Below, in pieces: positions 3,436 through 36,438 of a DNA stretch of 37,836 bases. Location of the stretch: positions 1-37,836 of IMG/VR virus record IMGVR_UViG_3300045999_004797; one strand, 5' to 3'. Numbering within the stretch: position 1 is the first letter of the stretch; each line of letters opens with the position of its first letter. The notes beneath the pieces were generated by a model. The model was not told the DNA's origin, did no database searches, and saw only the letters and a program-made list of their open reading frames with translations. Source of the stretch: a virus. The translations under genes were made by a program, and so were the position numbers.

Positions 3436-3436
3436 T

Positions 3437-4827: not shown

Positions 4828-4833
4828 AAAATT

Positions 4834-5670: not shown

Positions 5671-5956
5671 TTTAGACGGAACTCTTTGTAGTAACACTAA
5701 CGGTGATTATGAAAGGGCAAAACCATTTTACGAAAGAATTAATATTGTTAATAAACTTTTTAAAGATGGTAATATAATTTTAATTGATACTGCAAGAGGA
5801 TCAACTACAAAAATTGATTGGTTTGACTTAACAAAAAAACAATTAGAGGACTGGGGAGTTATGTATAATCAGTTGAGGGTCGGCATTAAATTAAATGCTG
5901 ACATTTTTATTGATGATAAAGGCATAAATGATAAAATTTTTTTTAAAAATGAATAA
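5654..5956 (+). CDS. Small HAD-superfamily phosphatase-like protein
   Basis: At 100 residues this is a minimal HAD fold with no cap. Motif I is DLDGTLC (Asp6 nucleophile, Asp8), motif II is the Thr in 'DTARGST' near 46, and motif IV is 'IFIDDKG' with Asp87/Asp88. All catalytic positions are present. Similar small HAD proteins with 'TARGS...DW..LT..QL..WG' occur in capsule and LPS clusters next to sugar isomerases. It may dephosphorylate a sugar phosphate, playing the GmhB-like or KdsC-like role next to the GmhA-like gene, but the substrate is inferred only from position. It overlaps NeuB by 17 bases and the next gene by 8. Confidence 0.8.
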   Translation: MIYCFDLDGTLCSNTNGDYERAKPFYERINIVNKLFKDGNIILIDTARGSTTKIDWFDLTKKQLEDWGVMYNQLRVGIKLNADIFIDDKGINDKIFFKNE

Positions 5957-6827
5957 TGAATTAAATTTTTACAATTATTTTAATAATGGAGATGTATTCT
6001 TTTCAAGAATTATTTTAAAACCTTTTTTTAATAAATTTAATTTAAATTTTTACCATAAAGAAAAGCATGGGTTATTTAGAGACATAAAAAATATTAATGA
6101 AAACTGCGGAATACCTAATGAGTACGACTGGGAAAAAAATAAAATTTTTATTTCAGACGATTTATATTCAACTCCAATAAATTGTTGGTTAGCTCAAACA
6201 ATAGAGGGTAGGGGTGAACCATTTCAAAATTATCCGTTTCCTGGTTGTGCGTTTGAAAACTATGTTGAGTTATCAAAAGAAATATCAAAACTATTTGAAC
6301 TAGATACTTTTAGTGTTGAGGAGTATTTACCTACGGTTCAATATCAAAATTTAGAAAACTATGAAAATATAAAAAAGTTAATGTTAGAATGTAAACAAAA
6401 ATTTAATAAAATAGTTTTAATTTCTAATGGTGACGTTAGGTCATCCCAATCATCAAATTTTAATTTTTTTCCCTATATTGATAAAATCAGTGACGAATTA
6501 AAAAACGTATTATTTATAACAACCGAAAACACAAACCTCAAAAAAAATAATATTTTAAATTCTTTTGAAATTACCAATGTAATTCCAGATTTATTAGAAA
6601 TAAGTTTAATATCCACATTTTGTGATGTTATAGTTGGTAGGGCATCGGGACCCTATTGTTTTTCACAGGTAAAAGAAAATTTATTAGACACAAATAAAAC
6701 TTTTGTTTGTTTTTGTAATAATGTACATATTGCTAAATTTTATCAAAATTGTAAATGCAACGTAATATGGTCACCAAATTACTCAGACGACATAATCTAT
6801 TCAAACATAAAAAATGCATTATTATGA
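5949..6827 (+). CDS. Probable glycosyltransferase-like protein of unknown substrate
   Basis: The ATG at 5949 gives 292 residues. An in-frame ATG at 5928 would lie deeper inside the HAD gene, so the later start, with its 8-base ATGAATAA overlap, is preferred. The N-terminus 'YNYFNNGDVFFSR' resembles the donor-side glycine loop of GT-B (heptosyltransferase-like) proteins. The second half has 'IVLISNGDVRSSQSSNF', then 'VIPDLLEISLISTFCDVIVGRASGPYCFSQ', quoted here in part, where a GT-B C-domain would bind a nucleotide sugar. I do not recognise a named family with certainty. The next gene, DUF4254-like, usually neighbours LPS glycosyltransferases, which supports a glycan-assembly role. Confidence 0.5.
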   Translation: MNNELNFYNYFNNGDVFFSRIILKPFFNKFNLNFYHKEKHGLFRDIKNINENCGIPNEYDWEKNKIFISDDLYSTPINCWLAQTIEGRGEPFQNYPFPGCAFENYVELSKEISKLFELDTFSVEEYLPTVQYQNLENYENIKKLMLECKQKFNKIVLISNGDVRSSQSSNFNFFPYIDKISDELKNVLFITTENTNLKKNNILNSFEITNVIPDLLEISLISTFCDVIVGRASGPYCFSQVKENLLDTNKTFVCFCNNVHIAKFYQNCKCNVIWSPNYSDDIIYSNIKNALL

Positions 6828-7168
6828 TAGGGGAAAAAATAGAAGATATTATAAAAAATGTGGTACACAGAACTTTAAATGAAAATAAAAATTCAGATAA
6901 AAATATTGAATTAATTGAAACGGACAACATTGGGGAAGTCATTGAAAAATTATCAATTCTACATTGTAGAATGTGGTATTTAGAAGACTCAATTGCCGAA
7001 GCCAAATCTAATGATGAGGTTTCAGAATTAAAACGAAAGATTGATATATGCTTTAAAGTTAAAAGACCTAAATTAGTTCAAGCATTAAATTATATGATAG
7101 ATAATTCAATTATAACTAATAAATCTTTAATTGAAGAATCTGTAAAATATTATAAAGGATTTAAATGA
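6824..7168 (+). CDS. DUF4254-like small protein of surface-glycan clusters
   Basis: The ATG at 6824 shares an ATGA overlap with the previous stop and gives 114 residues. An in-frame start at 6755 would put 23 residues inside the preceding gene and is not needed. The core 'LSILHCRMWYLEDSI' followed by 'ELKRKIDICFKVKRPKLVQAL' has the layout of DUF4254: a Trp-x-LED helix, a KR-x-ID step, then a basic residue and 'D/N.MID'. DUF4254 proteins are found in Bacteroidetes and Proteobacteria beside LPS heptosyltransferases and have no known function. The protein looks all-helical and soluble. Function is not assigned, and the similarity is judged by eye only. Confidence 0.6.
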   Translation: MIGEKIEDIIKNVVHRTLNENKNSDKNIELIETDNIGEVIEKLSILHCRMWYLEDSIAEAKSNDEVSELKRKIDICFKVKRPKLVQALNYMIDNSIITNKSLIEESVKYYKGFK

Positions 7169-7938
7169 AAAATTTGATTATTGGGTCTACTTCTCAGCTA
7201 AACTATTTTTTTCCTCATGACTGGGATCGTATTTCATCTAGGAATATAAATTTTAAAGAAATAAAAAATAAAAATTATAATTCCATTTTTATTCTTTTTG
7301 CCGAACAAAGGACATTTATTAACAAAGATGAAAATTTTTTTAATGAAATTAATGTTACCTATACCTTAAAAGTTATTAATGAACTTAAATCATTTTGTAA
7401 AAAAATAATAATTTACTCAACCTCAGAACTTTGGAATAATTATGATGGTCAAGTTAGTTTAGATTTACCTTTTAATTATTTTTATACTCCATATATAAAA
7501 TCAAAAGAAATTTTATGCACCATTATTAATGAAAATAAAAAAGACTACAGTAATATTCATATAGTATACCCCTTTAACTTTAATAGTCCTTTTAGAAAAA
7601 ATGGTTTTTTATTTAGTAAAATATTTGATTGTATCATAAACAAAAAGAAAATTTCTGTTGGTAACTTGGATTTATTGCGGGATATAATACACCCCTCTAT
7701 TATTGTTAATAACTCAATTGATATTAGTGATGACATAATGATTGGGTCGGGTCAATTAATAAATATTAAAAATTTTGTTTCAGATTTAATGAGACTTTCC
7801 AATATGGAATATTGTGATTATATTATAGAAGAAAAAGAAAAAAATTTTAATAAAAGAAATAACTATTACTCAAAAAATTCATATTCCAATTATAATGATT
7901 TATTAAATCTAACAAACTATGACATACAAAACAATTAA
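7165..7938 (+). CDS. Divergent NAD-dependent epimerase/dehydratase-like (extended SDR) protein
   Basis: This 257-residue protein keeps the skeleton of an extended SDR: an N-terminal beta strand 'NLIIGSTSQL' where GxxGxxG normally sits, 'IIIYSTSELW' (catalytic Ser/Thr region), 'YTPYIKSKE' (Tyr-x3-Lys) and 'LLRDIIHPSIIV'. The glycine-rich NAD loop is degenerate (GSTSQLN), and the protein is about 50 residues shorter than typical family members. Cofactor binding may therefore be altered. It lies just upstream of the ColD-like gene, overlapping it by 20 bases, with an ATGA overlap to the gene before. It may be a sugar epimerase/reductase or a decayed one. Confidence 0.6.
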   Translation: MKNLIIGSTSQLNYFFPHDWDRISSRNINFKEIKNKNYNSIFILFAEQRTFINKDENFFNEINVTYTLKVINELKSFCKKIIIYSTSELWNNYDGQVSLDLPFNYFYTPYIKSKEILCTIINENKKDYSNIHIVYPFNFNSPFRKNGFLFSKIFDCIINKKKISVGNLDLLRDIIHPSIIVNNSIDISDDIMIGSGQLINIKNFVSDLMRLSNMEYCDYIIEEKEKNFNKRNNYYSKNSYSNYNDLLNLTNYDIQNN

Positions 7939-9079
7939 TTTAGTTAAAGACACTATCGATAAAGAAGATATTGACGACCTAATAAGTTGGTTGTCAACTA
8001 ACCCTAAATTAACTAAAGGACCCTTAACTGTTAAGTTTGAGGAAGAATGGTCTAAGTGGTTAGGTGTTAAATATTCCGTTTTTGTTAATTCTGGTTCATC
8101 TGCAAATTTAGCGGCAATATATTCTTTAATATTATCGGGTAAATTAAAAAATAATAAAATTGTAGTACCATCGGTTTCTTGGGTTACAACCGTAACACCA
8201 GCAATACAATTAGGTTTGAATCCTATTTTATGTGAATGTGATAAAGATAATTTAGGTTTAGACATAGACCATTTAAAAAAAATAATAATAGACGAATCCC
8301 CATCGGCAATAATTTTAGTTCACGTATTAGGTATACCAAATCATATGGACGAAATTATAAAATTATGTAAAGATAACGACATTAAATTAATTGAGGATAC
8401 ATGTGAATCTATTGGTTCAAAATATAAAGATAAAATGTTGGGCACTATTGGAGACCTGTCAACGTTTTCGTTTTATTTTGGTCACCATATATCAACTATT
8501 GAGGGTGGGATGATATCTACAAATAATGAAGAATTATATCATATATTACTATCAATTAGGTCTCATGGGTGGGATAGGGATTTACCGATAGAAAAACAAA
8601 AAAAATTAAGAAAAAAACATAAAGTTAATGATTTTAGGGCATTATATACATTTTATTATCCAGGATTTAATCTAAGATCAACAGATTTACAGGCATTTTT
8701 AGGATTAAACCAATTAAAAAAAATTGATGATATAGTTAAAAATAGAAATAAAAATTTTTTAAAGTATAAAAAAGAAATAAAAAATAATTTTTGGTCGGTA
8801 TCCGAACCAAAAGGGTCTTACGTTTCAAACTTTTCATTTCCTATAATAACAAAAAATATTGAGTCTTTAACTTCAGAATTAATTAAAAATGGAATAGAAT
8901 GTAGACCTTTAATATGTGGTTCAATTAACGAACACCCTTTTTGGTATGAGAGGTATGAAAAAAAAGATTTTAAAAATGCTAAATTAGTACATGAGTACGG
9001 TTTATACATACCAAATAATCACCAAATGACTGATAATGAATTGGATTTAATAATAAAAATAGTAAATAACAATATATGA
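7919..9079 (+). CDS. DegT/DnrJ-fold PLP enzyme with catalytic His replacing Lys; ColD-like GDP-4-keto-6-deoxymannose 3-dehydratase
   Basis: This 386-residue protein of the DegT/DnrJ/EryC1/StrS aminotransferase fold shows 'FVNSGSSANLAAI', 'VPSVSWVTTVTPA', 'KLIEDTCESIGSKY' and 'GTIGDLSTFSFYFGHHISTI', then 'EGGM'. In ordinary family members the motif reads SFYP-x-K, with Lys forming the internal PLP aldimine. Here His189 (codon 8483-8485) occupies that position. Established knowledge: ColD of colitose synthesis and the related E1/RfbH dehydrases use His instead of Lys and remove the C3' hydroxyl rather than transaminate. ColD is almost the same length, with its His at 188. The next gene encodes GDP-mannose 4,6-dehydratase, which makes the ColD substrate. 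I infer GDP-3,6-dideoxyhexose formation. Confidence 0.85.
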   Translation: MTYKTINLVKDTIDKEDIDDLISWLSTNPKLTKGPLTVKFEEEWSKWLGVKYSVFVNSGSSANLAAIYSLILSGKLKNNKIVVPSVSWVTTVTPAIQLGLNPILCECDKDNLGLDIDHLKKIIIDESPSAIILVHVLGIPNHMDEIIKLCKDNDIKLIEDTCESIGSKYKDKMLGTIGDLSTFSFYFGHHISTIEGGMISTNNEELYHILLSIRSHGWDRDLPIEKQKKLRKKHKVNDFRALYTFYYPGFNLRSTDLQAFLGLNQLKKIDDIVKNRNKNFLKYKKEIKNNFWSVSEPKGSYVSNFSFPIITKNIESLTSELIKNGIECRPLICGSINEHPFWYERYEKKDFKNAKLVHEYGLYIPNNHQMTDNELDLIIKIVNNNI

Positions 9080-10053
9080 AAAAGGCACTTATAACAGGAA
9101 TAAATGGTCAAGACGGTTCTTATCTTGCAGAATTTTTGGTTGATAAAGGGTATGAAGTTTGGGGTACGGTTAAAAGAAATTCAGTATCGGAAACTCAATC
9201 ATCTAGAATAGAAAAATTAAGATTAGGTAATAAAGTTAAATTAGAATATTCCGATCTTACAGATATGGCGTCTTTAATTAGTGTATTACAAAAATCACAA
9301 CCAGATGAAGTATATAATTTAGCGGCACAATCTCACGTAAGGGTTAGCTTTGACCAACCAATATATACAGTAAACGCAACAGGGATGGGGACATTAAATT
9401 TATTGGAGGCTGTTAGAATGGTATCCCCGCATTCAAAAATATATCAAGCATCATCGTCAGAAATGTTTGGTAATAACATAGATAGTGATGGGTACCAAAG
9501 AGAAACCACCCCTATGAGTCCAGTATCTCCATACGGATGTGCAAAAGTATTTTCATATAACATTTGTAGAAACTATAGGAACTCATATGGAATGAAAATA
9601 TGGAATGGTATATTATTTAATCATGAATCTCCAAGACGAGGAACTAACTTTGTAACTAATAAAGTCGTAAAAGCTGCGGTTAGAATTAGTTTAGGGTTAC
9701 AGGATAATTTACATTTAGGTAACCTTGACGCAACAAGGGATTGGGGTCACGCAAAAGATTATGTGGAAGCAATGTGGTTAATGTTACAGTCAGAAAAACC
9801 AGATGATTATGTGTGTGCAACAGGGATATCTCATTCAGTAAAAGACCTATGTGAATATACTTTTTCTAAATTGGGTTTAGATTTTAGAAATTATGTTATT
9901 GTTGATGAAAAACATTTTAGACCCGAAGAATTGGAAAATTTAAAAGGAGATTCGTCTAAACTTACAAATGAATTAAATTGGAAACCAAAGTACACATTTG
10001 AAACGATGTTAGATGAAATGATTCAATACTGGTTAGAATATTATGGAAAATAA
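9076..10053 (+). CDS. gmd: GDP-mannose 4,6-dehydratase
   Basis: At 325 residues it is normal for bacterial and phage Gmd. The NADP loop TGINGQDGS is at 7-15, NLAAQSHV at 81-88, the SSSEMFG catalytic segment at 126-132, and YGCAK with Tyr153 and Lys157. 'NHESPRRG' and 'ATRDWGHAKDYVEAMW' are nearly invariant in the family. It converts GDP-D-mannose to GDP-4-keto-6-deoxy-D-mannose in the cytoplasm, the shared precursor of GDP-L-fucose, GDP-perosamine and GDP-colitose. Upstream is the ColD-like dehydratase (4-base overlap); downstream is the Fcl/ColC-like gene (11-base overlap). All three steps are thus translated together. Confidence 0.95.
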   Translation: MKKALITGINGQDGSYLAEFLVDKGYEVWGTVKRNSVSETQSSRIEKLRLGNKVKLEYSDLTDMASLISVLQKSQPDEVYNLAAQSHVRVSFDQPIYTVNATGMGTLNLLEAVRMVSPHSKIYQASSSEMFGNNIDSDGYQRETTPMSPVSPYGCAKVFSYNICRNYRNSYGMKIWNGILFNHESPRRGTNFVTNKVVKAAVRISLGLQDNLHLGNLDATRDWGHAKDYVEAMWLMLQSEKPDDYVCATGISHSVKDLCEYTFSKLGLDFRNYVIVDEKHFRPEELENLKGDSSKLTNELNWKPKYTFETMLDEMIQYWLEYYGK

Positions 10054-14118: not shown

Positions 14119-14937
14119 ATGAATATGGAAGAGAAAGATATGTTTGACGTGTCGGTAATTTTACCGATTAATACTTCATTTAGTAAAGACTTTGATGACT
14201 TATTTGAAAGATCAATTAAGTCATTAAAAAACCAATCAGTGAATGTTAATGAATTAATAATTGTTCATTCAAAAGATGAAACACTTAAAAATAAATTATC
14301 CTCTTTTGATTTTGAAGGGTTGAATGTCATTAAAGTTGAAAACGAAGGTGATATTGATTTTGCATCTCAAGTTAATTTGGGAGTTAAAAGTGCAAAAAGT
14401 AAGTGGGTATCATTTTTAGAATTTGATGATGAGTACTCAGCAATTTGGTTTAAAAATGTAAAGAGATATGTTGACTCATATTCCGATTACGATGGGTTTT
14501 TACCTTTGGTTGTTGATACGGATGAGAAAGGGGTATTTGCTGGATTCACAAATGAGGCAACGTTTGCTGTTAGTATGAATTCTGAGATGGGAATTTTAAC
14601 AAATGAATTGTTAAGTAATTACCAAAATTTCCAATCAAGTGGAATGGTTGTTAGGAAATCCCTTTTTGAAGATTGTGGTGGGTTTAAACCATCATTTAAA
14701 TTAACTTTTGTGTACGAATTTTTATTAAGGTTAACTTATAATTCATCTAAAATTATGACGATTCCAAGAATTGGGTATAAACACATGAATATGAGAGAAG
14801 GGTCAATTTTTTGGGATTATAAATTTGGTGATGAAAAGGTAAGTGATAATGAGGTTTCGTTTTGGTTGGAGACGGCAAAAAAAGAACATTTTTTTACCTC
14901 TGATAGAAACATAAAGTATGAACCATCAGAAGTTTAA
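14119..14937 (+). CDS. GT-A (GT2-like) glycosyltransferase
   Basis: This 272-residue protein starts with the GT2 pattern 'DVSVILPINTSF', 'FERSIKSLKNQ' and 'ELIIVHSKDET', then 'ASQVNLGVKSAKSKWVSFLEFDDEYS'. Asp103-Asp104 stand where the metal-binding DxD of GT2 enzymes lies. Later 'SSGMVVRKSLFEDCGGFKPSF' matches the GT2 acceptor loop, with the Gly-Gly-Phe typical of O-antigen and capsule transferases. It would add a sugar from an NDP donor with inversion. It follows the GT-B gene after 1 base and overlaps the sigma gene as TAATG. Its acceptor is unknown. Confidence 0.8.
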   Translation: MNMEEKDMFDVSVILPINTSFSKDFDDLFERSIKSLKNQSVNVNELIIVHSKDETLKNKLSSFDFEGLNVIKVENEGDIDFASQVNLGVKSAKSKWVSFLEFDDEYSAIWFKNVKRYVDSYSDYDGFLPLVVDTDEKGVFAGFTNEATFAVSMNSEMGILTNELLSNYQNFQSSGMVVRKSLFEDCGGFKPSFKLTFVYEFLLRLTYNSSKIMTIPRIGYKHMNMREGSIFWDYKFGDEKVSDNEVSFWLETAKKEHFFTSDRNIKYEPSEV

Positions 14938-15683
14938 TGGTAGTTATTGACCAAAATGAAAACGAACAAAGTGAATTAAATAAGACGAGTAAACCAAAAA
15001 AAGCTAATTATTTTGATACTCGTGAGGAAGAAGCGGTTAAATTATATATAACCGCAGAAACCAAAGAAGAAAAAGACGTAATATATAATGAATATCTAAG
15101 GGAACCATTAAACAAAATGATTGAGTCCATTATCAGAAGGTATAAATTATATAGAAAGGATATGGCCTTTGAGGATAATCATTCCGATACCCATTCTTTT
15201 TTAATGACTAAAGTAGATAAGTTTAAGCCGGCTAAAAACAAGAAGGCCTATTCTTATTTTGGTACTATTTGTAAAAATTATCTTATGGGTCAAATACAAA
15301 AAGACCAAAAAGATATGAATAGAAAAGTATCGTACGAAGACATATCAGTAACTTTGGAAAATAGACCAGATATGGTTTATTATTTAGAATTTGAAAAACT
15401 TGATGCCGAGAAAATAATAGAGATTTTTTTAAAAGATTTAAGGAATCACGTTTCAAATAAAGTTGAAAACGAAAATGAACTTAAACTTGGTCATGCGTTA
15501 ATTGAACTTTTTGATAACTATGGTAATATTTTTATTGGTAATGACAATAATAAATTTAATAAAAATATTGTATTACTCTCTTTAAGAGAGATGACTAACT
15601 TAAACACTAAAGAGATAAGAATATATTTAAAAAAATTTAAAATTCTTTATTTAGAAACATTAAAAAGAATTCATAACGAATAA
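14937..15683 (+). CDS. Sigma-70-like factor, T4 gp55-like late sigma
   Basis: This 248-residue protein has a region that reads like sigma region 2: 'YNEYLREPLNKMIESIIRRYKL', given here by its key part LREPLNKMIESIIRRY, then 'DTHSFLMTKVDKFKPAKNKK', 'AYSYFGTICKNYLMGQIQK' and 'DQKDMNRKVSY'. The AY-x-YF-x(8)-L-x(3)-I-x-K pattern is shared by T4 gp55 and its relatives in marine T4-like phages. The C-terminal part has a helix-rich 'LREMTNLNTKEIRIYLKKFK' that could act as a region 4-like helix-turn-helix. It would direct host RNA polymerase to phage late promoters. Notably, the ATATTTATA start-site motif appears only downstream of this gene. The start overlaps the previous stop (TAATG). Confidence 0.7.
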   Translation: MVVIDQNENEQSELNKTSKPKKANYFDTREEEAVKLYITAETKEEKDVIYNEYLREPLNKMIESIIRRYKLYRKDMAFEDNHSDTHSFLMTKVDKFKPAKNKKAYSYFGTICKNYLMGQIQKDQKDMNRKVSYEDISVTLENRPDMVYYLEFEKLDAEKIIEIFLKDLRNHVSNKVENENELKLGHALIELFDNYGNIFIGNDNNKFNKNIVLLSLREMTNLNTKEIRIYLKKFKILYLETLKRIHNE

Positions 15684-23941: not shown

Positions 23942-24430
23942 ATGGAAACACACAAAAAATGTAGTAAATGTGATGAATTAAAAAGTGTTAATGATTTTTA
24001 TCTAACACAACGAGGTAATAGGTGTAAAGAATGTATATTAAAAGTCACCAGAAGTTATAAAAGAAAAAAAAGACTTAATCCCGAACACAGAAAAACAGAA
24101 GGTCAAAAACAAAAAGAAAGAAGGGTTAGGTTGTGGCAAAACACATTACTACACGATTCAAAACATAGAAAAATTGAACATACTTTAACAATCAACGATA
24201 TTAATGAAATGTTAGAAAAACAAAACGGTTTATGTTATTGGTTTAAAATACCCTTATTACCGTCTAACAAACATAAACACCCACAACAACCATCTTTAGA
24301 TAGAATAGATAGAAATAAAGGTTATACTAAAGATAATGTGGTATTATGTTGTTACTCTGCGAATATCGGTAGAAATGAAAACGATTTAAACACTTGGTTA
24401 GAATTTATAAAATTGTTAAATATTATTTAA
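23942..24430 (+). CDS. HNH-type endonuclease, possible homing endonuclease
   Basis: The protein has 162 residues. The N-terminal zinc ribbon shows Cys7, Cys10, Cys28 and Cys31 in 'KKCSKC' and 'RGNRCKECI'. After a basic linker, 'NGLCYWFKIPL' and 'PSLDRIDRNKGYTKDNVVLCCYSAN' (key parts SLDRID, GYTKDNV and N141) form an HNH/endonuclease VII-like fold. The first catalytic position is Asp-Arg rather than Asp-His, as in some phage HNH families. Such genes are often free-standing homing endonucleases that move between phages, and its position at the strand switch fits an insertion. Its 3' end overlaps the convergent gene by 15 bases. Confidence 0.75.
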   Translation: METHKKCSKCDELKSVNDFYLTQRGNRCKECILKVTRSYKRKKRLNPEHRKTEGQKQKERRVRLWQNTLLHDSKHRKIEHTLTINDINEMLEKQNGLCYWFKIPLLPSNKHKHPQQPSLDRIDRNKGYTKDNVVLCCYSANIGRNENDLNTWLEFIKLLNII

Positions 24431-25372
24431 TAGATTTCTAACAACATCTTCTAAGGACTCATTTTGAGTCTTTTTCTTTTTTGGTTCGTAATGTGTCATT
24501 ACGGGTTTTTGTCCCTTACCTGTTTGTGTGTCTTTTTTCTCTGCAGTTCTTTTTTGTTGACACGCTGATTTTTTTGCTGAATCTGACATTTTACCAGCAA
24601 CCCCTACTGCTCTACATTTAGGATAACCCTTACTATCTGCGTCAGGTCTACCACAAGGGGGATGTTTACCGTCTACTTTTCTACATATATTAACCCATGG
24701 TCCTTTTGGCTGTTTAGATCCTTTTGGTTTCTTCTTTGTTCCAAACCAAACCGCTAAATCTTCATTAATTGTGTGTGCGTCGTGAATATCAAGATCGTAA
24801 GACCCGTCTTTATTTCTTTCCCAATGACCGACATACCCTTTAACGTTATTTTTTAATGTTTTTTGTTTTTTCTCGTGATTAAATTCCGTATCAGCAAACT
24901 CAGTAAAGGGATCTAATTCATATTTTTTCCATTTTTTTAATCCTATGGCAATTGGTCCGTTATATCCACCAGCACTTACTGCGGTAGAAATTTCATTTAA
25001 ATTGATACTATCTAAATCAACCCACTCTTTAAGTGGTACTACATTTTTATTTTTACCAGGAAATTGATTTATGGGATTACCTTCATCATCACTAATCGTT
25101 GAGTTCGGGTGATATTTAATATAGTCGGTAACTTTTTTAGCTTTTTTTTCTATTTTTTTAATTTGTTTTTTTGGTGTCTCCATTGACCCGTCATAACTAT
25201 CGTACTCTAAAAATGGTGAATCATATTTAGAAACTTTAGTGGTAAATGGTTGGTTTTGGTCTTTACCAAATTCTCTTATCCCTGGCATTAGTGGTGCAAT
25301 GTAAGAACCCCTACTTCCTGTGGAGGTAGAGGTTGCTTCACGTATAATTTTTTTAATAATATCGTCTAACAT
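24416..25372 (-). CDS. Possible packaged internal protein with targeting-like N-terminus and Cys-containing C-terminal domain
   Basis: The protein has 318 residues. It starts 'MLDDIIKKIIREATS', again a short amphipathic helix, with Ile-Arg-Glu before Ala, matching the T4 prohead protease rule (L/I)-x-E. The middle has 'KKWKKYELDPFTEFADTEF' and 'DGSYDLDIHDAHTINEDLAVWFG'. The C-terminal part 'GPWVNICRKVDGKHPPCGRPD', then 'YPKCRAVGVAGKMSDSAKK' and 'ACQQKRTAEKKD', is a compact basic Cys domain seen in other T4-like phage proteins. It closes with 'SLEDVVRNLLNNI'. A capsid-internal DNA- or protein-binding role is inferred. An ATATTTATA motif lies 4 bases before its start. Confidence 0.6.
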   Translation of the reverse strand: MLDDIIKKIIREATSTSTGSRGSYIAPLMPGIREFGKDQNQPFTTKVSKYDSPFLEYDSYDGSMETPKKQIKKIEKKAKKVTDYIKYHPNSTISDDEGNPINQFPGKNKNVVPLKEWVDLDSINLNEISTAVSAGGYNGPIAIGLKKWKKYELDPFTEFADTEFNHEKKQKTLKNNVKGYVGHWERNKDGSYDLDIHDAHTINEDLAVWFGTKKKPKGSKQPKGPWVNICRKVDGKHPPCGRPDADSKGYPKCRAVGVAGKMSDSAKKSACQQKRTAEKKDTQTGKGQKPVMTHYEPKKKKTQNESLEDVVRNLLNNI

Positions 25373-26608: not shown

Positions 26609-28432
26609 TTATCTCAATTCTCTCAAGTCAAATGTACGTACACCATCAACCGTGATTTTACCATAGAAACGGTTATTAACCATTTTCTTAGCGTATCTCG
26701 TCATTATTCCTTTGATAGGAGTAAAGTTGAATGGATTGTACATTGTAGGAGTCAATTGTAGAGGTACGTACGGTGCGTAAACATATCCTGTGTCTAACAA
26801 TGATGTTCCTTTATGACCCAACAATACTGTGTTTGGTGGGAAGTAAGGGTCACGGTAAACTTGGTAACGTCCAGCCAATGTACCTACTCTTTCAATACCC
26901 ATGTTGTACTGATCTTGCTCAGGAGATGCGTTAGATACGTGGAAGTATTCTAAGTCATCAAAGATTGCAGAAATCTCAGAAGAAACTACGATCCAATTAG
27001 CACCACCTCTAAGTGTAGACTTGTGGATTTGTGCTGAAATTTGGTTAATCGCAGTAACCAAAGTTTGATTCCAATCTTTTTGAGTGTACTGAGTTAATGG
27101 GTTAGCAGATGTACCTCTCTTCCATCCGTTGTAATCCCAACGTAATGTCCAAGCTGCACCTTTACGTAAGTCACGTAAAATTTCACGGTCAATCTCTGCC
27201 GCCACTTGTTCTGACAATAAAGCCGTCAATTCAGCTTCAGCATCAATATTATGGAATGCAGAAACGTCTTGTGCCAATTCAGGAGACCATTGTGCTCTTA
27301 GTTTTCTTTCAGTTACAGAAACAGTTACTGACTCAAGGTCAAAAGAAACTTCACCAATTTTGTCTTCAAATTCCAATTCTTGGTAAACTTTATAAGTTGC
27401 CGTAAATCCTGAACCTGCACCACCGCTACCAGCTATAGTTGTTGTTAAACCTGAATAGCCGTCTAATGAATTTACACCAATAGCACATGGAACTTGTAAA
27501 TCAACTTCTAAATAGATAATACCACTTTGTGAACAAATATCATCATAAGAACCACCATTCCCTGGATAAGAACCACTATAGAATGTTGTTGCTTGTTGTG
27601 TACCGTATTGTACAATACCTTTACCATATTTTTGAGTAACAACTCTAAACAATAATGAACCTGAACCCGCTCCTGAGAATGCTGAAGCTGCTCCTGCTAC
27701 TGTTGTTCTAGCAAAAATTCTTAAATCTGAAAGGAATGCCTCATTATCCATTTCTTGTCCGTCAGGACCGATTAATTTACCTGCACCTGCAGAAGAGAAA
27801 CCGGATAAACCAATCAAGACTTTTCTATACTCACCTGCAGAGTATCCTGAAGAAACTAATTGACTACCATCCCAAGCAACAGTACCAACTGCGGTTGAAG
27901 TAATTGCCGAATAGTTACCTTTAGAGTAATCAAAAAGGCCTGCCGGATCTAATCCCGCTTCGTTACCTTCATAGAATCTATCGTAAAGATTCTTAGCTGT
28001 TGAAGGATATCCTTGTTGAGATTCTGCTGCTGTTGGTCCATTCTGAGCCCCGATAGGTCCGTAGTGAATACCACCAGTTGTGTTTTCAGTTTGGTAAGAC
28101 TGAATTTTAGGCACAAAGTAGAACAATTTACCGATAGGTAAGTTCATTGCTTGTACAGATACTAAATCGTTAGCCAACAATTTAGAGAATACACGTCTTA
28201 CGATAGGGAAAACTACAGTTTCAAAAGAACCTGAGCTATCAGTAGATGCAGCTTCGTTAATTAGGTGAGACGCTTGGTTTTCATACAACTGTGCCATGTT
28301 CTCTTTAATGTGTCCTTTAAGACCGTCTAGGAATCCTAATCTATCCCATTTGTTAATTGTATCTTCTTTGATAACTTTCAAGTGCTTCAACCCGATGTTA
28401 CCAACAAGACCTGATTCTAATAATGCTCCCAT
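26609..28432 (-). CDS. Major capsid protein, T4 gp23-like
   Basis: At 607 residues it is longer than T4 gp23 (about 520). The N-terminal 'LGFLDGLKGHIKENMAQLYE' and 'NQASHLINEAAS' precede a predicted cleavage site Ile-Asn-Glu60 before Ala61, matching the T4 rule (L/I)-x-E. Next comes 'ETVVFPIVRRVFSKLLANDL', then 'VSVQAMNLPIGKLFYFVPKI', the gp23 core start (the family has 'PI.RRv.P.l.a.dl.gVQPM..PtG.if'). Later 'EDKIGEVSFDLESVTVSVTERKLRAQWSPELAQD' (key part TVTERKLRAQWSPELAQD-like) and the C-terminal 'YAPYVPLQLTPTMYNPFNFTPIKGIMTRYAK' (key LTPTMYNPFNFTPIKG) are also family hallmarks. An extra Gly/Ser-rich insertion around 165-350 may be an exposed surface loop. Strong terminator downstream. Confidence 0.96.
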   Translation of the reverse strand: MGALLESGLVGNIGLKHLKVIKEDTINKWDRLGFLDGLKGHIKENMAQLYENQASHLINEAASTDSSGSFETVVFPIVRRVFSKLLANDLVSVQAMNLPIGKLFYFVPKIQSYQTENTTGGIHYGPIGAQNGPTAAESQQGYPSTAKNLYDRFYEGNEAGLDPAGLFDYSKGNYSAITSTAVGTVAWDGSQLVSSGYSAGEYRKVLIGLSGFSSAGAGKLIGPDGQEMDNEAFLSDLRIFARTTVAGAASAFSGAGSGSLLFRVVTQKYGKGIVQYGTQQATTFYSGSYPGNGGSYDDICSQSGIIYLEVDLQVPCAIGVNSLDGYSGLTTTIAGSGGAGSGFTATYKVYQELEFEDKIGEVSFDLESVTVSVTERKLRAQWSPELAQDVSAFHNIDAEAELTALLSEQVAAEIDREILRDLRKGAAWTLRWDYNGWKRGTSANPLTQYTQKDWNQTLVTAINQISAQIHKSTLRGGANWIVVSSEISAIFDDLEYFHVSNASPEQDQYNMGIERVGTLAGRYQVYRDPYFPPNTVLLGHKGTSLLDTGYVYAPYVPLQLTPTMYNPFNFTPIKGIMTRYAKKMVNNRFYGKITVDGVRTFDLRELR

Positions 28433-28467: not shown

Positions 28468-29964
28468 TTATTTTATTTTTGTCATCAAATCCTTCATTCT
28501 CATGAATTGAGGATTTTCATACGTTTTATTTTCAATTAAATTTGAAGATGACCCATTACTTGGAGTTTTTATTACTTGTCTTTCAATAGATTCAGTAACG
28601 ACTTTAGTTTGGTTTCCATCTAATTCATTTTTAATTGATTTGTACAAAGATTTAGATTCTTTAAGTGTTTCAACATTGTCAAATCTTCTAAGAATGTTAA
28701 TCTTTTCTTGTTTTGTTGTTGAATGTTCAGTGAATAATCTTGTAGAGTATGCTAAGTTTGAGTTAAATACTGCAACCTCGTTTAATTTATTTCTAAAGAA
28801 ATCTAAAGCCTTTTTGTATTCTTCATTTTTTTCTCTCAATAAATTCATTTCTTGGTTAACAGATTCTGAACGTACTTGTCTTGGTGCTGCAACTCTATTT
28901 CTTTCGGCTCTTCTTCTATATGTCATAGTTCTTGATGCTTCAGTAGTTTCTGCGTCCATAGTATCGTCATCTTCCCATCCTTCATAAGCAATGATTTCTT
29001 CATCCACTTCTTCTTCTTGTTCAGTAACACCTTGTTTAATATTTGGGTATTTAAATTTAGGACCTCTTCCACCACCTTTAGGTGCTTCAGGTTTGTCGTC
29101 TTTAAATCCTTTATGATTAACTGATGATTTCGGCATAGTTCTATTAACTTTACCCATACCCATTCCTTTTGCTTTGAATGATTCCATAACCCCTTCTAAA
29201 TCTTCGGTGTCAATTTCATAAACGGTTTCTTCTGAATCAATCCCTGATAAATCTAATCGTGACGGTCTCATTCCGCTACCACCCATTTCGTCATAAGATT
29301 CTTCCATTTCGTCATAAGATTCTTCCATTTCGTCATAAGATTCTTCCATTTCGTCATAAGATTCTTCCATCTCATCTTTGTCGTCAACCTCAATTTCGTA
29401 AATTACGTTTTCAATCATTTGTGTGTTTACATTTTGGTCTGAATTACCATCCATTTGAATAATGTATTCGGAATTAGTATTATTATCTGAAAGATGAACA
29501 TTATTATCTTCATCTTTTACTACAATAATTCCGTCTTCTTCACCCATGTGTTTAAAAACTTTAAAAAGTTCCTTATTGGATGCATGTATCATATTTAATG
29601 GCGGCATTTCGTTATCACCCATTCCGGGTTCTGTTTCAAAACCTTGGAAATCAAGACTTACCGCCTCTTCTCCTCCGTCTTCGTATTCTACTTGTCCTTC
29701 AATATCTGTTTCGATCTCTTCTTCGTCAGGATTTAAATCCTCATCACCTGGTACAGGCTCTTCTTCTTCATCACCTGGTACAGGTTCTTCTTGTTCGCGA
29801 AGTTTTCTTTTTGACCCACTAATAGATTCTCTTACAAGTTCACTGATTTCTTCCTTCATCGTTGAAGCAAGTATTCCTTTTGCATTTTCATTTATAGCAT
29901 CTTCAAGGTTCTTAATTTGTAATAAGGCCTCTTCAACTATAGAACTATTTTTTTCTAAGCTCAT
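28468..29964 (-). CDS. Probable prohead core scaffolding protein (gp22 position), acidic with tandem repeats
   Basis: The 498-residue protein lies directly upstream of the capsid gene, where T4 has gene 22. It is very acidic and helix-rich. The N-terminus is a coiled coil ('ALLQIKNLEDAINENAKG', 'MKEEISELVRESISG'), followed by 'EEPVPGDE' twice and a run of E-E-S-Y-D-E-M heptads encoded by 21-base repeats. The C-terminal third ('NLLREKNEEYKKALDFFRNK', 'KINILRRFDNVETLKE') is again a helical bundle ending 'NPQFMRMKDLMTKIK'. Scaffold proteins of T4-like phages are acidic, low-complexity and degraded during maturation, which fits. Direct sequence similarity to gp22 cannot be judged by eye. Confidence 0.75.
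   Translation of the reverse strand: MSLEKNSSIVEEALLQIKNLEDAINENAKGILASTMKEEISELVRESISGSKRKLREQEEPVPGDEEEEPVPGDEDLNPDEEEIETDIEGQVEYEDGGEEAVSLDFQGFETEPGMGDNEMPPLNMIHASNKELFKVFKHMGEEDGIIVVKDEDNNVHLSDNNTNSEYIIQMDGNSDQNVNTQMIENVIYEIEVDDKDEMEESYDEMEESYDEMEESYDEMEESYDEMGGSGMRPSRLDLSGIDSEETVYEIDTEDLEGVMESFKAKGMGMGKVNRTMPKSSVNHKGFKDDKPEAPKGGGRGPKFKYPNIKQGVTEQEEEVDEEIIAYEGWEDDDTMDAETTEASRTMTYRRRAERNRVAAPRQVRSESVNQEMNLLREKNEEYKKALDFFRNKLNEVAVFNSNLAYSTRLFTEHSTTKQEKINILRRFDNVETLKESKSLYKSIKNELDGNQTKVVTESIERQVIKTPSNGSSSNLIENKTYENPQFMRMKDLMTKIK
29284..29367 (-). repeat. Four perfect 21-base tandem repeats in the scaffold gene
   Basis: Four consecutive identical 21-base units (29284-29304, 29305-29325, 29326-29346, 29347-29367) encode E-E-S-Y-D-E-M repeats on the minus strand. 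The nucleotide-perfect identity suggests recent or ongoing slippage expansion, in frame with the gene. Confidence 0.95.
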
Positions 29965-30342: not shown

Positions 30343-31053
30343 TTAATTACCTAAATAATCGGATAATCTTTTCATTAAGTCAACAGACGCACTTAAAGGA
30401 TTTGATTCTGAATTAACATTTTCGTTTTCTGTTAAGTTTTCTTCATATTTTACTCTATCTTCTTTGTTTAAATATAGATATGCTCCAGGAGTTGACGGAG
30501 AAGACACCAAGTCAAAACATATTATTTCAAAATCGTCTTGAACTTCATTTTGGTCTCCTTTTTTAACTAAAGATCCCACTCCACGAGATGAAACTCCCAT
30601 TGTAACACCTTGTCTCATCATATTAGCCGCGATATCCCCTTTAGATGATACAATACCCCTTTCGTGAAATCCTGGAGTTGTTAATAATTGTATTTTACCC
30701 ATTAACACATTACCTTCCCACCATACTTCCGTTATAAGGTGAGATACTCTATCTAAATCAATAAGAGATGATTCAGGGTGATTCAATTCAGAAATTGACA
30801 TACCCTTTTTAATCATTTCTTTATATTTTTCAGCTTCTCGTTTTAAAATTTTTTCAGGGTAAACTCTACCATTACGATTTGGAACTCCATATTTTTGAAG
30901 AGTCGCATAAAACACAAATGGTTTTGAGTGGTCTAATTGACCGTAAGATTCATTAACTACCGAGTGGTTTCTACTGTCTTTTATATCAATATATCCTGCA
31001 TCGTGTTCAATTAATATTCCTTTACCTGTATCTTTAGGTCCTAATATTTTCAT
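30343..31053 (-). CDS. Prohead core protease, T4 gp21-like (peptidase family S77)
   Basis: This 236-residue protein shows the typical prohead protease segments: 'VFYATLQKYGVPNRNGRVYP' (46-65), 'ISELNHPESS' with the catalytic His92, 'VSHLITEVWWEGNVLMGKI', and 'GVTMGVSSRGVG' with the catalytic Ser at about 155-156. 'FDLVSSPSTPGAYLY' is the family end block. T4 gp21 cleaves scaffold, capsid and internal proteins after (L/I)-x-E, and such a site is visible in the capsid protein here (after Glu60). The tail ('TENENVNSESNPLSASVDLM') may be the self-processing extension. Motif ATATTTATA lies 12 bases before its start. Confidence 0.93.
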   Translation of the reverse strand: MKILGPKDTGKGILIEHDAGYIDIKDSRNHSVVNESYGQLDHSKPFVFYATLQKYGVPNRNGRVYPEKILKREAEKYKEMIKKGMSISELNHPESSLIDLDRVSHLITEVWWEGNVLMGKIQLLTTPGFHERGIVSSKGDIAANMMRQGVTMGVSSRGVGSLVKKGDQNEVQDDFEIICFDLVSSPSTPGAYLYLNKEDRVKYEENLTENENVNSESNPLSASVDLMKRLSDYLGN

Positions 31054-31065: not shown

Positions 31066-31074
31066 TATAAATAT
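31066..31074 (-). promoter_or_regulatory. ATATTTATA motif before the prohead protease gene (minus strand)
   Basis: On the minus strand this reads exactly ATATTTATA, ending 12 bases before the ATG at 31053. It overlaps the final base of the upstream gene's stop codon. Confidence 0.5.
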
Positions 31075-31523
31075 TATGACATAACAAAATCTTTGGTTTT
31101 GGTCTTACTTAATGTAAAATATTTGGAATTTTTTAAATCGTCCTTATAAATTGATTGGATAATTTGTTTGATTTTATCCCTCAGAATTAAAGATTTAAAA
31201 TCTATAGTTTTACTACTAACAAACAAAGTTATTTCTAAATTTAAAAAACTTTTTTTATTTTTTTGTATACCGCTTGTTCTTAAATCTAAATCTACAATTT
31301 GTTTTTTTTCAAATGTTGTGTGGTCAACAACTTCTAATAGTGTATGTAATATTTGTCTCTTGATTTCTCCCGTAATCCTAACCCAATTATCGTAATCTTT
31401 TAATGGTTCTACCCAAGTTTGTAATACAATGTATATTGATTTTAGGTCTTTAGAATCTACCGTTCCATAGTGACATTTTGCATCATCAAAAACATTTAAT
31501 TTTGACGTTTTTCCTTTTTTCAT
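31074..31523 (-). CDS. Hypothetical head-module protein
   Basis: This 149-residue protein begins with a basic 'MKKGKTSKLNVF' and then an alternating alpha/beta region: 'SIYIVLQTWVEPLKDYDNWV', 'EIKRQILHTLLEVVDHT', 'FLNLEITLFVSSKTIDFKS'. It contains a single Cys, no membrane segment and no catalytic motif I can recognise. The C-terminus is Lys-rich ('LSKTKTKDFVMS'). It is in the position of a head assembly gene between the portal-side genes and the protease, and its start faces the S21 gene across a 103-base divergent gap. Function unknown. Confidence 0.65.
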   Translation of the reverse strand: MKKGKTSKLNVFDDAKCHYGTVDSKDLKSIYIVLQTWVEPLKDYDNWVRITGEIKRQILHTLLEVVDHTTFEKKQIVDLDLRTSGIQKNKKSFLNLEITLFVSSKTIDFKSLILRDKIKQIIQSIYKDDLKNSKYFTLSKTKTKDFVMS

Positions 31524-31602
31524 TTTTCATAACTTAACCGTTTATTGTTTTAGTTAATTGTATGAAATTAAATATGATTTGTCAAAAAACAAAAAAACCC
31601 TT

Positions 31603-31611
31603 ATATTTATA
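31603..31611 (+). promoter_or_regulatory. ATATTTATA motif before the S21 gene (plus strand)
   Basis: Exact ATATTTATA on the plus strand ends 15 bases before the ATG at 31627. Because all neighbouring genes are on the minus strand, this gene needs its own promoter, which makes the site especially informative. Confidence 0.55.
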
Positions 31612-31626
31612 CCAAAAACAAGAAAT

Positions 31627-31821
31627 ATGATTATAATTCCAGTTAAAAATTCAAACACGTTAGAGAGTTCCCTTAAAAGTTTAAAGTTTAAAGTTTATAA
31701 AACTAAACAAACAGATATTCTAAGAGAAAAACAGACTTATGTAAAAAAATCAGTTAAAAAAAGAAATCAAATTAATAAGGCAAAACACATCCAAAAAATG
31801 AAGGACTATTCTGGGTCTTGA
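31627..31821 (+). CDS. rpsU: Ribosomal protein bS21-like protein
   Basis: The ATG at 31627 gives 64 residues. An in-frame start at 31558 is possible but would precede the ATATTTATA motif and add residues absent from S21, so it is rejected. 'MIIIPVKNSNTLESSLKSLKFKVYKTK' (key part LESSLKSLKFKVYKTK) followed by 'DILREKQTYVKKSVKKRNQI' and 'NKAKHIQKMKD' follows bS21: N-terminal strand, 'L..aLk.lk.K..ktgil.e.R.r..YeKPS.kRr.k...A' and a basic tail. bS21 sits near the 3' end of 16S rRNA and helps mRNA binding. It is the only plus-strand gene in the head module and overlaps the next gene's end by 16 bases. Phage-borne S21 is known in a few marine phages. Confidence 0.8.
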   Translation: MIIIPVKNSNTLESSLKSLKFKVYKTKQTDILREKQTYVKKSVKKRNQINKAKHIQKMKDYSGS

Positions 31822-32060
31822 TTCTTATTTTTTTTACCAAATATTTTTTCGGTTGACGTTAATCCTAAACACCCAAACGCTAACATTGCCACTGCATTTA
31901 CTAATGTGTCTGACGGTTTAATGTCTCCGTGAGAATAACTGTTTACGTATAATGTAACACAAAGAGATACTCCACATAATATCCCTATAAATCTTTTAGA
32001 TGATGAGTTACCATCACTATCTTTAAATAGATTACCAAGAGCGGTCATAAATTTTTTCAT
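31806..32060 (-). CDS. Two-transmembrane small protein, holin-like candidate
   Basis: The protein has 84 residues. After a short charged N-terminus and 'SSSKRF', there are two hydrophobic segments, 'IGILCGVSLCVTLYV' and 'LVNAVAMLAFGCLGLTS', separated by a polar loop with 'GDIKPSD'. The end is Lys/Asn/Asp-rich ('EKIFGKKNKNQDPE'). This is the plan of small class II-type phage holins and of a 2-TM protein common in Bacteroidetes phages. No lysozyme or endolysin gene is adjacent, so the holin role is a guess. It overlaps the upstream gene by 4 bases (ATGA) and converges with S21. Confidence 0.6.
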   Translation of the reverse strand: MKKFMTALGNLFKDSDGNSSSKRFIGILCGVSLCVTLYVNSYSHGDIKPSDTLVNAVAMLAFGCLGLTSTEKIFGKKNKNQDPE

Positions 32061-32813: not shown

Positions 32814-34622
32814 TTACTTATTTAATAAATTGCGAAGTTTATCATCAATTTCTATTAAAGAGTTTTGACCCTTTGATAAATCAAAGTGAGTTGACCCATT
32901 AAAAAGGGTTTCTTCAATCAATAAATTCATATTTTCCCTATTAAATGTTTCAGGGGTTATTTCCCCTCCCGCAGGTGGTGAAGGTGGTTCAGTCATACCT
33001 CCACCAGATGGTGGTTCAGGCATACCTCCACCTTCAGGTGATTCTCCACCTTCAGGTGTTGCTCCCACTTCACTATCAGATTTACCATATAACTTATCTA
33101 TTGTATCAAAAATACCCGTTTTAGTAATTACTTCAGGTGTTTTAGCAAGTTCGGCAGATACCGCCCTTTCAATACGTTGTTGTTGTAAATCCAATCTAAT
33201 TTCATCATCCGAGAAACCTAAGATATGTTTTTTAGCCCAAGACGCAGAAACAGGTGCTACAGTATCCGTAATTGGAGTTACCGCATCTTTATAAAGTAAC
33301 ATTTTTTCTTTCCATACTTCAACACCAAGTAAATCTGATTGTTTTGATGGGTTATGTAACCCTAAACTAAAGTTTGTTAATTCGTCCTCAAACCCTAATA
33401 AAAATAAATGAATAATTGCAATTTTATTTAATTCAGCAATCATTGATTTTTGAATTTTATTAATGGTTCTTGCGAATCTAATATCAAGTAACGATAAATT
33501 TTTACCATCACCTAACGCCTCCTCAAATCCTAAATATGCCTTAGGGATTCTAAGTGCCGTAACTAATTTCTTTTGGATGTACTCAATATCTGCAATTTCC
33601 GCCAAGTTTGTTCCACCAGGTAAAGTTTCAATTGGGTTTGTTGCTGCTGCGTCTCTAACGGGAATAAAGAAATCTTGGTCAACAGCCAATTGATTATATC
33701 TCATATCAACATTACCAGTTTTGTTGTCAACAATTTGGTCCCTTTTAAATTTATTTGCAACTCTTTGTACGTATGGGTCAACGTCCTTATCATCCATATT
33801 ACCAACAAAAACCTTAAATACTCTTCTTTCAGGTGCTCTTGAAACACGATATATTAACATAGCATCTTCAGATAATAAAAGTTGTTTCCAAATACGACGG
33901 GCCTTTTCTAACATTGACGTTCCATAAGGGAGTTTTCTATCATCACCTAAAATTCTAAAATGGGCCACCTCCCATGTATTGAACTCCATGTTTTTCTCCT
34001 TCCACATAAATTTTAATGCGTCGTTTTCAGTTTCTTGGGAGTATTTATCTGGATGAAATTTCATCCCCTTTTCTAATCTTTCAATTTGAATGTTAGGTAA
34101 TTGGGTTACACCCATTATTCCCTTTTCAGGGTCTAATTTTAAGTACACAAAGTTATCTCCAAACTTACAAGTGTTTCTTGTCCACATAGGTAAGTTTGTG
34201 TTTATGTCCAATCTACTAACAAAAAGGTCATATAAAACTGTTTTAATTCTTTTTGATTCTGAATAGATTTTTAGAATTTCACCATCTTTATCTGGTGTTG
34301 TTGACTCTTCGGCATATATGTCAAGAGCAGTTGAGATTTCAGGAGTATACTCCATAGATTCGTAATCATAGTACGACGCCATTCTTGTTGGTTCATAATA
34401 AACCGCTTGAGTATATAAATTACTTTCAACCTTTTGCCATTGCTTACCCAAATACATTGTTTGTTGAGCTTGCAACTTCTCAGTTTCATATTCTTGTTTA
34501 CTTGTTGTTTTTAAAAGTTCTTTTTTATCAAACTTAAACACAGGTGACTGTTGGTCTAAAGTTGAATTAGGTCCAAACGCCCTACTTAACCTTTGCCATA
34601 CTGTAAATTTTTCTTGTGCCAT
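32814..34622 (-). CDS. Portal protein, T4 gp20-like
   Basis: This 602-residue protein has gp20-family blocks: 'YESMEYTPEISTALDIYAEE' (88-107), 'LPMWTRNTCKFGDNFVYLKL', 'NTWEVAHFRILGDDRKLPYG', 'SMLEKARRIWKQLLLSEDAM', 'IYRVSRAPERRVFKVFVGNM' and 'RIPKAYLGFEEALGDGKNLS'. The portal is the dodecameric ring for DNA entry and exit at the head vertex. The C-terminal about 100 residues are a low-complexity Gly/Pro/Glu-rich linker ('EGGGMPEPPSGGGMTEPP') followed by a short helical end. That linker is not part of the T4 portal and may be a flexible extension. It lies 37 bases after the terminase gene. Confidence 0.95.
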   Translation of the reverse strand: MAQEKFTVWQRLSRAFGPNSTLDQQSPVFKFDKKELLKTTSKQEYETEKLQAQQTMYLGKQWQKVESNLYTQAVYYEPTRMASYYDYESMEYTPEISTALDIYAEESTTPDKDGEILKIYSESKRIKTVLYDLFVSRLDINTNLPMWTRNTCKFGDNFVYLKLDPEKGIMGVTQLPNIQIERLEKGMKFHPDKYSQETENDALKFMWKEKNMEFNTWEVAHFRILGDDRKLPYGTSMLEKARRIWKQLLLSEDAMLIYRVSRAPERRVFKVFVGNMDDKDVDPYVQRVANKFKRDQIVDNKTGNVDMRYNQLAVDQDFFIPVRDAAATNPIETLPGGTNLAEIADIEYIQKKLVTALRIPKAYLGFEEALGDGKNLSLLDIRFARTINKIQKSMIAELNKIAIIHLFLLGFEDELTNFSLGLHNPSKQSDLLGVEVWKEKMLLYKDAVTPITDTVAPVSASWAKKHILGFSDDEIRLDLQQQRIERAVSAELAKTPEVITKTGIFDTIDKLYGKSDSEVGATPEGGESPEGGGMPEPPSGGGMTEPPSPPAGGEITPETFNRENMNLLIEETLFNGSTHFDLSKGQNSLIEIDDKLRNLLNK

Positions 34623-34659: not shown

Positions 34660-36438
34660 TTAAACCCTTCTACCTCCGAACAACCATAAATAGTTTTCAT
34701 AATCACTTTTGGTTAAAGTATTTTTACTGTAGTTATTTAAACCGTATGGGTCCACGGGTAAACCGGGGTTGAAGTTTGCGTGAGAATCTCTAAATACGTT
34801 GGTTTCAGTTGTCCAAGACTCTATCATTGCTTTTGCCTGCTCAGTTGATTTTTCTAATAGAGAAAATGACGTTTCGCCAACATAAAGAGCCATAGCCATC
34901 GCCATTATTAAGTCATCGTGTTGTCCTTTTTGGTGATCAGGTCTACCGTTCACATAAACAAAGGTGTTGAGTTCGTTAAATAATCTCTGTGACCTTAATG
35001 CGAAATCAAATCGTAACGCCTCTTCAAACGCCTGTATAATTAAAACTCTTTTTGAGTTAAAATTAATTCCAGGAATTTTATCTTGTAATTTTGGGTCCCA
35101 TTTCCATTTATCTGCAGGATTAACGCCATCAACATATAAATTTTTATATCCAAGTTCCTGTAGTTTTCTTGATGTAGAAACACCCATACCTCCAGTAATA
35201 TCAATTACAATAAACGAATTATACATTGTTGCCCATTTAAACGCAATTTCTGCAGCAATATCAGGTGGAATTTTACCTAAGTACTCCAATACCTGTTCTC
35301 TCGTGTCAAAGTCTATAATACACATTGTGGTAAAATCTTCACTATCTCCTCTTGAAACGTCAACACCCATAATGTATCTATGACCAGCAACAGGTTCTTT
35401 CCACTGCCAAAGAGCCCCACCCATAAATTTGTTTTCAGGTTCCTTGATGTGTTTTTCTTTTATTTTTTTCATAGTTTCAGAAGGGATTACGTTATCTCCT
35501 GAACCTAAAAAGTTACACTCTAACTCTTGTGATATTTTTCTTTTATCAAATTTTAGTTTTTTAGCCATAGCTTCAAACCAAGAACTATATGCCTTATATC
35601 CACCATTTTCAATCCTATCTTTTATTTCTTGAAAATCTCTGTTACTAACTTTAATATTGGTATAATCAAGAGTTATTTCCTCATCTTTATAATCGGCACG
35701 GTTTAACATATAATGAACAATGTCATCACATTTAATTAATTTTAAATCTTTTGAATATCTTGGGTCACGAAACCAATACATTTCTGTGATTTTAAAGTCA
35801 TTCATCCCTTTTACTGCCTGAGTATAAATTGAGTAATAAATTGGGTCAAATCCGTTTGGTGTTGATATAACAATAACTTTACCACCCGTAGATAGTGATG
35901 CCATACATGCAGACCAGAAGTCCTCGTCGGCATTGATGTATGCTGCCTCATCAAAAATTAATATGGTTGGGGTATATCCACGTAACGCATCCTTTGATGT
36001 TGCAACCGCCTTTACCTCACACCCATTTGTTAGTTTAAAATGTCTCTGTGAATTCTTCTCAACAGAAAACCCAACACCTATCCATTTTGGCCATTGGTCA
36101 ACAAACGCACGAACTTTGTTTGCCATCTCAACAGCAGTATCCATTTTGTTTGCAATAATTAGGATTTTTTCAGGTTTCTTTTTATTTGCAAAAATTAACC
36201 TTTTGGACGCCCAAGCAGACGTTACAGTTGATACCCCAGCTTGACGATATTTTAATGCAATATTTTCTTCACAAGTATCATAGTCATTGACAAGTGTTAC
36301 TTGGTCATTAAATAATTCTAACGGTACGTATTGTGATTGGGTATTATCGTATGTTTGTAAATACGTTTTTAATGCGTATGGCGTATCATTTACGCATCTT
36401 GCATATTCTAATAATATTTGTTCTTTTGATAAAGACAT
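34660..36438 (-). CDS. Terminase large subunit, T4 gp17-like
   Basis: This 592-residue protein has an N-terminal ATPase and a C-terminal RNase H-like nuclease. The Walker A region is 'ALKYRQAGVST' (61-71) without the usual Gly-Lys-Thr lysine, with Lys63/Arg65 upstream as in deviant terminase P-loops. Walker B with catalytic Glu is 'ILIFDEAAY' (159-167; Asp163, Glu164), and 'VIVISTPNG' is motif III. Nuclease acids are in 'MGVDVSRGDSEDF' (Asp360), 'VIDITGGMG' (Asp413) and 'GQHDDLIMAMA' (Asp508/509). It packages DNA through the portal and cuts it. It ends 37 bases before the portal gene and starts 3 bases after the previous gene's stop. Confidence 0.96.
   Translation of the reverse strand: MSLSKEQILLEYARCVNDTPYALKTYLQTYDNTQSQYVPLELFNDQVTLVNDYDTCEENIALKYRQAGVSTVTSAWASKRLIFANKKKPEKILIIANKMDTAVEMANKVRAFVDQWPKWIGVGFSVEKNSQRHFKLTNGCEVKAVATSKDALRGYTPTILIFDEAAYINADEDFWSACMASLSTGGKVIVISTPNGFDPIYYSIYTQAVKGMNDFKITEMYWFRDPRYSKDLKLIKCDDIVHYMLNRADYKDEEITLDYTNIKVSNRDFQEIKDRIENGGYKAYSSWFEAMAKKLKFDKRKISQELECNFLGSGDNVIPSETMKKIKEKHIKEPENKFMGGALWQWKEPVAGHRYIMGVDVSRGDSEDFTTMCIIDFDTREQVLEYLGKIPPDIAAEIAFKWATMYNSFIVIDITGGMGVSTSRKLQELGYKNLYVDGVNPADKWKWDPKLQDKIPGINFNSKRVLIIQAFEEALRFDFALRSQRLFNELNTFVYVNGRPDHQKGQHDDLIMAMAMALYVGETSFSLLEKSTEQAKAMIESWTTETNVFRDSHANFNPGLPVDPYGLNNYSKNTLTKSDYENYLWLFGGRRV

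Follow-up and report, generated by a model that had tools for sequence, protein, structure and literature searches.

The window, a 37.8-kb stretch of viral DNA, carries a homologue of ribosomal protein bS21 (rpsU-like) embedded in a T4-like head module, with capsid, protease, portal and terminase genes flanking it (Table 1). Every other plausible gene from position 24416 to the window end lies on the minus strand, and the open reading frame encodes the basic protein of 64 residues that the original prediction had placed inside the head module as the sole plus-strand gene in 13 kb. The span first proposed (31603–31821) is correct at the stop codon and wrong at the start, as 31603 takes in an upstream motif and the ATG lies at 31627. 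The proposed identity is confirmed by a profile search, with a PF01165 match above the cut-off (E = 1.8e-7; 31.2 bits against 27) and an NCBIfam TIGR00030 match slightly below it (28.2 bits against 28.95). The closest solved chain is bS21 of Flavobacterium johnsoniae (7jil_z, E = 8e-9), which is equal in length, 42% identical and has the same C-terminal region of contact with the anti-Shine–Dalgarno (anti-SD) sequence (PDB 7jil; PMC9976891).

Table 1. Features of the window discussed in the text.
Feature	Position	Strand	Evidence or remark
Sugar-nucleotide cluster	206..10053	+	cytidylyltransferase, NeuB-like synthase, aminotransferases, GDP-mannose dehydratase-like epimerase
Probable gp55-like late sigma factor, candidate TATTTAT reader	14937..15683	+	phrog_234, E 1.1e-4
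Gene starts preceded by TATTTAT	15710, 19818, 23363, 23942	+	
Gene starts preceded by TATTTAT	25372, 31053, 32797	-	
Endonuclease VII-like gene	23942..24430	+	overlaps 3' end of opposite-strand gene 24416..25372
Major capsid protein (T4 gp23-like)	26609..28432	-	PF07068, E 9.2e-72
498-aa protein preceding capsid gene, probably scaffold	28468..29964	-	position alone
Prohead core protease (T4 gp21-like)	30343..31053	-	PF03420, E 5.6e-24
149-aa conserved gene, head-to-head with bS21	31074..31523	-	in all relatives with enough sequence
Divergent intergenic region, bS21/149-aa gene	31524..31626		103 bp; 103–109 bp in relatives
TATTTATA element before bS21	31604..31611	+	15 nt ahead of ATG
bS21 homologue (rpsU-like), 64 aa	31627..31821	+	ATG to TGA; protein MIIIPVKNSNTLESSLKSLKFKVYKTKQTDILREKQTYVKKSVKKRNQINKAKHIQKMKDYSGS
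84-aa gene, tail-to-tail with bS21	31806..32060	-	open reading frame; overlaps bS21 3' end by 16 bp
Portal protein (T4 gp20-like)	32814..34622	-	PF07230, E 7e-76
Large terminase	34660..36438	-	PF03237, E 5.1e-12; phrog_2, E 1.2e-38

Neither the putative scaffold nor the 84-aa gene was assigned by Pfam, NCBIfam or PHROG profiles, the former giving no convincing family match and the latter none; the 84-aa product is membrane-spanning in appearance when inspected by eye. The 149-aa gene is conserved more highly than bS21 itself (mean column identity 79%, 24 sequences). Its AF2 model is confident (alpha/beta, pLDDT 84.7) yet found no match in the PDB and one uncharacterised phage protein in BFVD, so a function could not be drawn from the fold.

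Scanning viral contigs for bS21 recovered 80 loci (identity 52–100%), and wherever there is enough flank the layout is identical: bS21 diverges from a 144–153-aa gene across 103–109 bp and converges on a 77–100-aa gene, frequently with an overlap of 13 or 16 bp. Among these relatives dN/dS is 0.01–0.09 (non-saturated comparisons), by which measure phage bS21 is under strongly purifying selection. In a phylogeny with host S21, a branch supported at 100/100 sets all phage rows apart; its stem is 1.28 changes per site long, and the clade adjoins Bacteroidia-type hosts. As judged from alignments and tree, these comparisons show membership of a phage bS21 family that forms a single phage clade, keeps a fixed synteny and evolves under purifying selection. 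A Bacteroidota-type origin is supported by the tree; the short alignment does not reach as far as an exact host lineage. A prophage or a host rpsU was rejected as the source, the record being a virus contig (IMG/VR) and the phage clade separate. No tRNA genes, a possible hint to the host, were found in the window.

The gene arrangement is already known from Chen et al. 2022 (PMC9723584), who described 47 freshwater Bacteroidetes myophages (clades a–e; genomes of 293–331 kb; TerL at least ~70% similar within the definition) whose TerL–portal–protease–capsid block contains an opposite-strand bS21. They reported high transcription of bS21 at the late stage together with late genes, an aromatic residue 54, an N-terminal helix that has diverged and a neighbour on the opposite strand, the co-evolving bS21_CN, and proposed that phage bS21 substitutes into host ribosomes (PMC9723584). 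Like those phages, the window has a Bacteroidota-type bS21 with an aromatic residue 54, encoded opposite TerL, portal, protease and capsid and few genes away from them, together with a conserved opposite-strand neighbour (the 149-aa gene, a probable counterpart of bS21_CN, their fam498) and sugar-biosynthesis genes; unlike them, it spans just 38 kb, a fragment from which neither genome size nor clade can be read. Pelagibacter phage HTVC008M, also a myovirus with a phage-borne bS21, offers a further comparison: Mizuno et al. showed that its protein enters ribosomes of E. coli and that their activity in vitro then drops to ~5% (PMC6375957). Unlike the window gene, that copy was captured from the phage's own Pelagibacter host (PMC6375957), a separate origin.

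Every relative whose sequence reaches far enough upstream has TATTTATA ahead of bS21. The motif that had been read as the gene's own, ATATTTATA, is real; it also precedes about eight other window genes on both strands. Within the window, sense-oriented copies of TATTTATA/TATTTAT stand 3–15 nt upstream of several gene starts on both strands, among them those of the protease gene (12 nt from its ATG) and of a 246-aa gene. Across five sequence sets, the window and four relatives (404 genes; for one relative close to the window we counted solely the part outside the shared head region), TATTTAT occurs within 27 nt of 74 gene starts (18%), against a mean of 6.0 (1.5%) and a maximum of 12 in shuffled sequences. 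The motif is common to bS21, protease and tail genes, and the window genes listed with it in Table 1 are of late type. Its gap to the ATG is bimodal (4–5 nt and ~12–15 nt), although some gaps may shift because the genes were called simply as longest open reading frames. No accompanying −35 element was found in these 404 genes, and ATAAATA has no comparable positional peak in the window or its relatives.

The 103-bp region between bS21 and the 149-aa gene also holds a conserved block, TTGTCAAAA. Read on the minus strand it is TTTTGACA, with a TAnnnT-like box after it, possibly a host-type promoter of the 149-aa gene. We rejected TTGTCAAAA as a −35 element of bS21, since the minus-strand promoter fits at least equally well and the block is missing from other motif-bearing genes. 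A separate heptamer, AATAAAC, recurs 15–23 nt before the capsid (28432), scaffold-position (29964) and 149-aa (31523) genes, all on the minus strand.

Late transcription in T4 uses the sigma factor gp55 and the promoter consensus TATAAATA. Reading TATTTATA as such a promoter on the minus strand was rejected, as the intergenic copies are sense-oriented just before starts on both strands; the sense element is TATTTAT(A), not TATAAATA. The two systems share a single −10-like element, the lack of a −35 and a (here probable) gp55-family sigma, and differ in that the window motif is TATTTAT at ~4–18 nt from the ATG, a presumed resemblance in working and not in sequence. By this analogy TATTTATA before bS21 is a candidate −10 element of a T4-type late promoter. 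Its putative reader aligns colinearly over 135 aa with the PHROG late-sigma family phrog_234 and has homologues in 7/9 records and also in Flavobacterium phage vB_FspM_immuto (E 4.9e-17); it probably belongs to the gp55 family. The protein had no Pfam match, aligned weakly with T4 gp55 itself by hhalign (probability 9%) and gave a poor model whose fold matches are mostly sigma factors, none significant; at pLDDT 58 we rejected assignment from the fold as more than a hint. A T4-type late system with an altered element would be the simplest account.

Immuto (NC_055915), a T4-like phage and the nearest cultured relative by capsid protein (~40% identity), shares both the motif and the sigma homologue. 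There the motif stands ahead of the genes for terminase, portal, tail sheath, tube and tape measure and is concentrated in the structural/late half of the genome (18/77 starts, against 11/136 in the replication half; Fisher p = 0.003). Unlike the window phage, immuto has no bS21, and its motif-to-start gaps are longer and more variable. If TATTTAT acts as a −10 with the 5' end ~4 nt beyond it, many late messages would be leaderless or have leaders of <15 nt, that of bS21 being ~13 nt; the transcription start is inferred, and so therefore is leader length. The main text of Chen et al. makes no mention of promoters, motifs or leaderless mRNAs (PMC9723584), and our literature search found no relevant phage paper on the motif, subscription papers being mostly outside its reach. 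The putative late-gene switch common to bS21 and virion genes appears to be new.

We compared 29 phage bS21 rows with Bacteroidia host rows residue by residue. bS21 is known to line the 5' mRNA exit channel, and in the N-terminal half, on the mRNA exit side, the phage rows have F21 (28/29), V23 (27/29), Y24, K27 and Q28 (29/29 each) where Bacteroidia hosts have mostly R, F, D/E, G and T. The window protein has all five phage residues, against R, F, D, G and T in F. johnsoniae. The C-terminal half, the part contacting the 3' tail of 16S rRNA, is retained, with K40, S42, R46, A52 and Q56 as in hosts. In Bacteroidia-type bS21 the aromatic residue 54 stacks on A1534, and the Y54A variant of F. johnsoniae translates SD templates ~3-fold more (PMC9976891). 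Position 54 is Tyr in 24/29 phage rows and His in 5/29, and the window His54, also found in one host row, is aromatic as in Bacteroidia-type bS21 with its anti-SD pocket. The half that holds the anti-SD tail would be kept, with His54 in the position of Tyr54.

Shine–Dalgarno (SD) sequences are not enriched in phage genes, either in the window (6.8% against 5.8% in shuffled sequence) or in its relatives, in agreement with the host. Host rpsU, by contrast, has an SD in 81/111 leaders; it is autoregulated via ribosomes that lack bS21, for which the SD is the signal to translate it (PMC9976891). The window bS21 has none, and a strong GGAGG-type SD occurs in 3/30 distinct phage bS21 leaders. A strong SD like that of host rpsU, AAAGGAGG, was seen between TATTTATA and the bS21 ATG at loci L042-L046, L054, L057, L059, L061-L063 and L066.

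These observations suggest a route by which the phage protein may act. Captured once from a Bacteroidota host, bS21 would have evolved within a T4-like jumbo phage lineage. A gp55-like sigma would read TATTTAT, so that bS21 would be made late, alongside the virion genes, and would take the place of the host protein on 30S subunits. In the C-terminal half of the phage protein, where His54 stands for Tyr54, the anti-SD tail would stay in its pocket. The N-terminal half, rewritten at the 5' exit channel for mRNA, would alter which mRNAs initiate well; those favoured would be phage late messages without an SD and with leaders of zero to ~15 nt. That phage bS21 steers ribosomes toward phage mRNAs is an already published and plausible hypothesis (PMC9723584, PMC6375957). 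Because the channel for upstream mRNA is lined by bS21, and it is there that the phage protein has changed, a preference by leader length or composition is the most economical selective model. We hold the full scheme, in which a late bS21 adapts host ribosomes to phage late mRNAs by way of the sigma, replacement and leader steps, at roughly even confidence. A more specific reading, SD-independent selection by leader length, in which the TATTTAT promoter yields short or no leaders and bS21 from the same promoter specialises host ribosomes for them, strikes us as rather doubtful. Immuto counts against the scheme: as it carries motif and sigma without bS21, the protein is not required for short-leader messages.

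The ~5% activity of E. coli ribosomes carrying pelagiphage bS21 (PMC6375957) also counts against it and fits a plain shut-off, whereby the phage protein poisons or slows host initiation and frees resources with no preference for phage mRNAs. The strongly diverged N-terminal half is compatible with such poisoning, but the assay used a distant host, and late timing fits poorly because the phage then needs massive translation; we regard shut-off as improbable. A supply or repair role, in which phage bS21 completes 30S subunits and ribosome assembly is thereby sustained once host expression stops, with no selectivity, would accommodate the conserved anti-SD pocket residues and the autoregulation of host rpsU through bS21-less ribosomes (PMC9976891), which the strong SDs in 3/30 phage leaders could exploit. 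Pure replacement, however, explains neither the joint change of five exit-channel positions nor their freezing across the clade, and this role too seems unlikely to be the answer.

A further alternative turns on the hidden anti-SD: His54 would weaken stacking on A1534, freeing the anti-SD and favouring SD-bearing phage messages. His54 in the window and in 5/29 phage rows, set beside the Y54A result (PMC9976891), lends this some appeal, but it is not supported: SD matches are no more frequent than in shuffled sequence, His is aromatic and occurs in a host row, and most clade phages keep Tyr. Release of the anti-SD tail for phage mRNAs is unlikely because phage genes have no SD enrichment, and we give this mechanism very little credence. 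Equally improbable is a non-ribosomal role such as packaging in the virion, raised as a possibility by Chen et al. (PMC9723584), or binding of another RNA; the gene does lie among head genes, but host and phage bS21 have in common the C-terminal half that contacts rRNA, and entry into ribosomes has been shown for one phage bS21 (PMC6375957).

On the question of why phages carry bS21, the window gives a concrete, testable link: one late-promoter-like motif precedes bS21 and virion genes alike, and start codons lie very near the inferred 5' end. Immuto, which infects Flavobacterium sp. LMO8 and has motif and sigma without bS21, is a natural control. This large Bacteroidetes virus probably carries bS21 to retune host ribosomes late in infection. 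Since Bacteroidia ribosomes hide the anti-SD, viral selection of messages by leader length and not by SD pairing would, if true, be a new kind of translational takeover.
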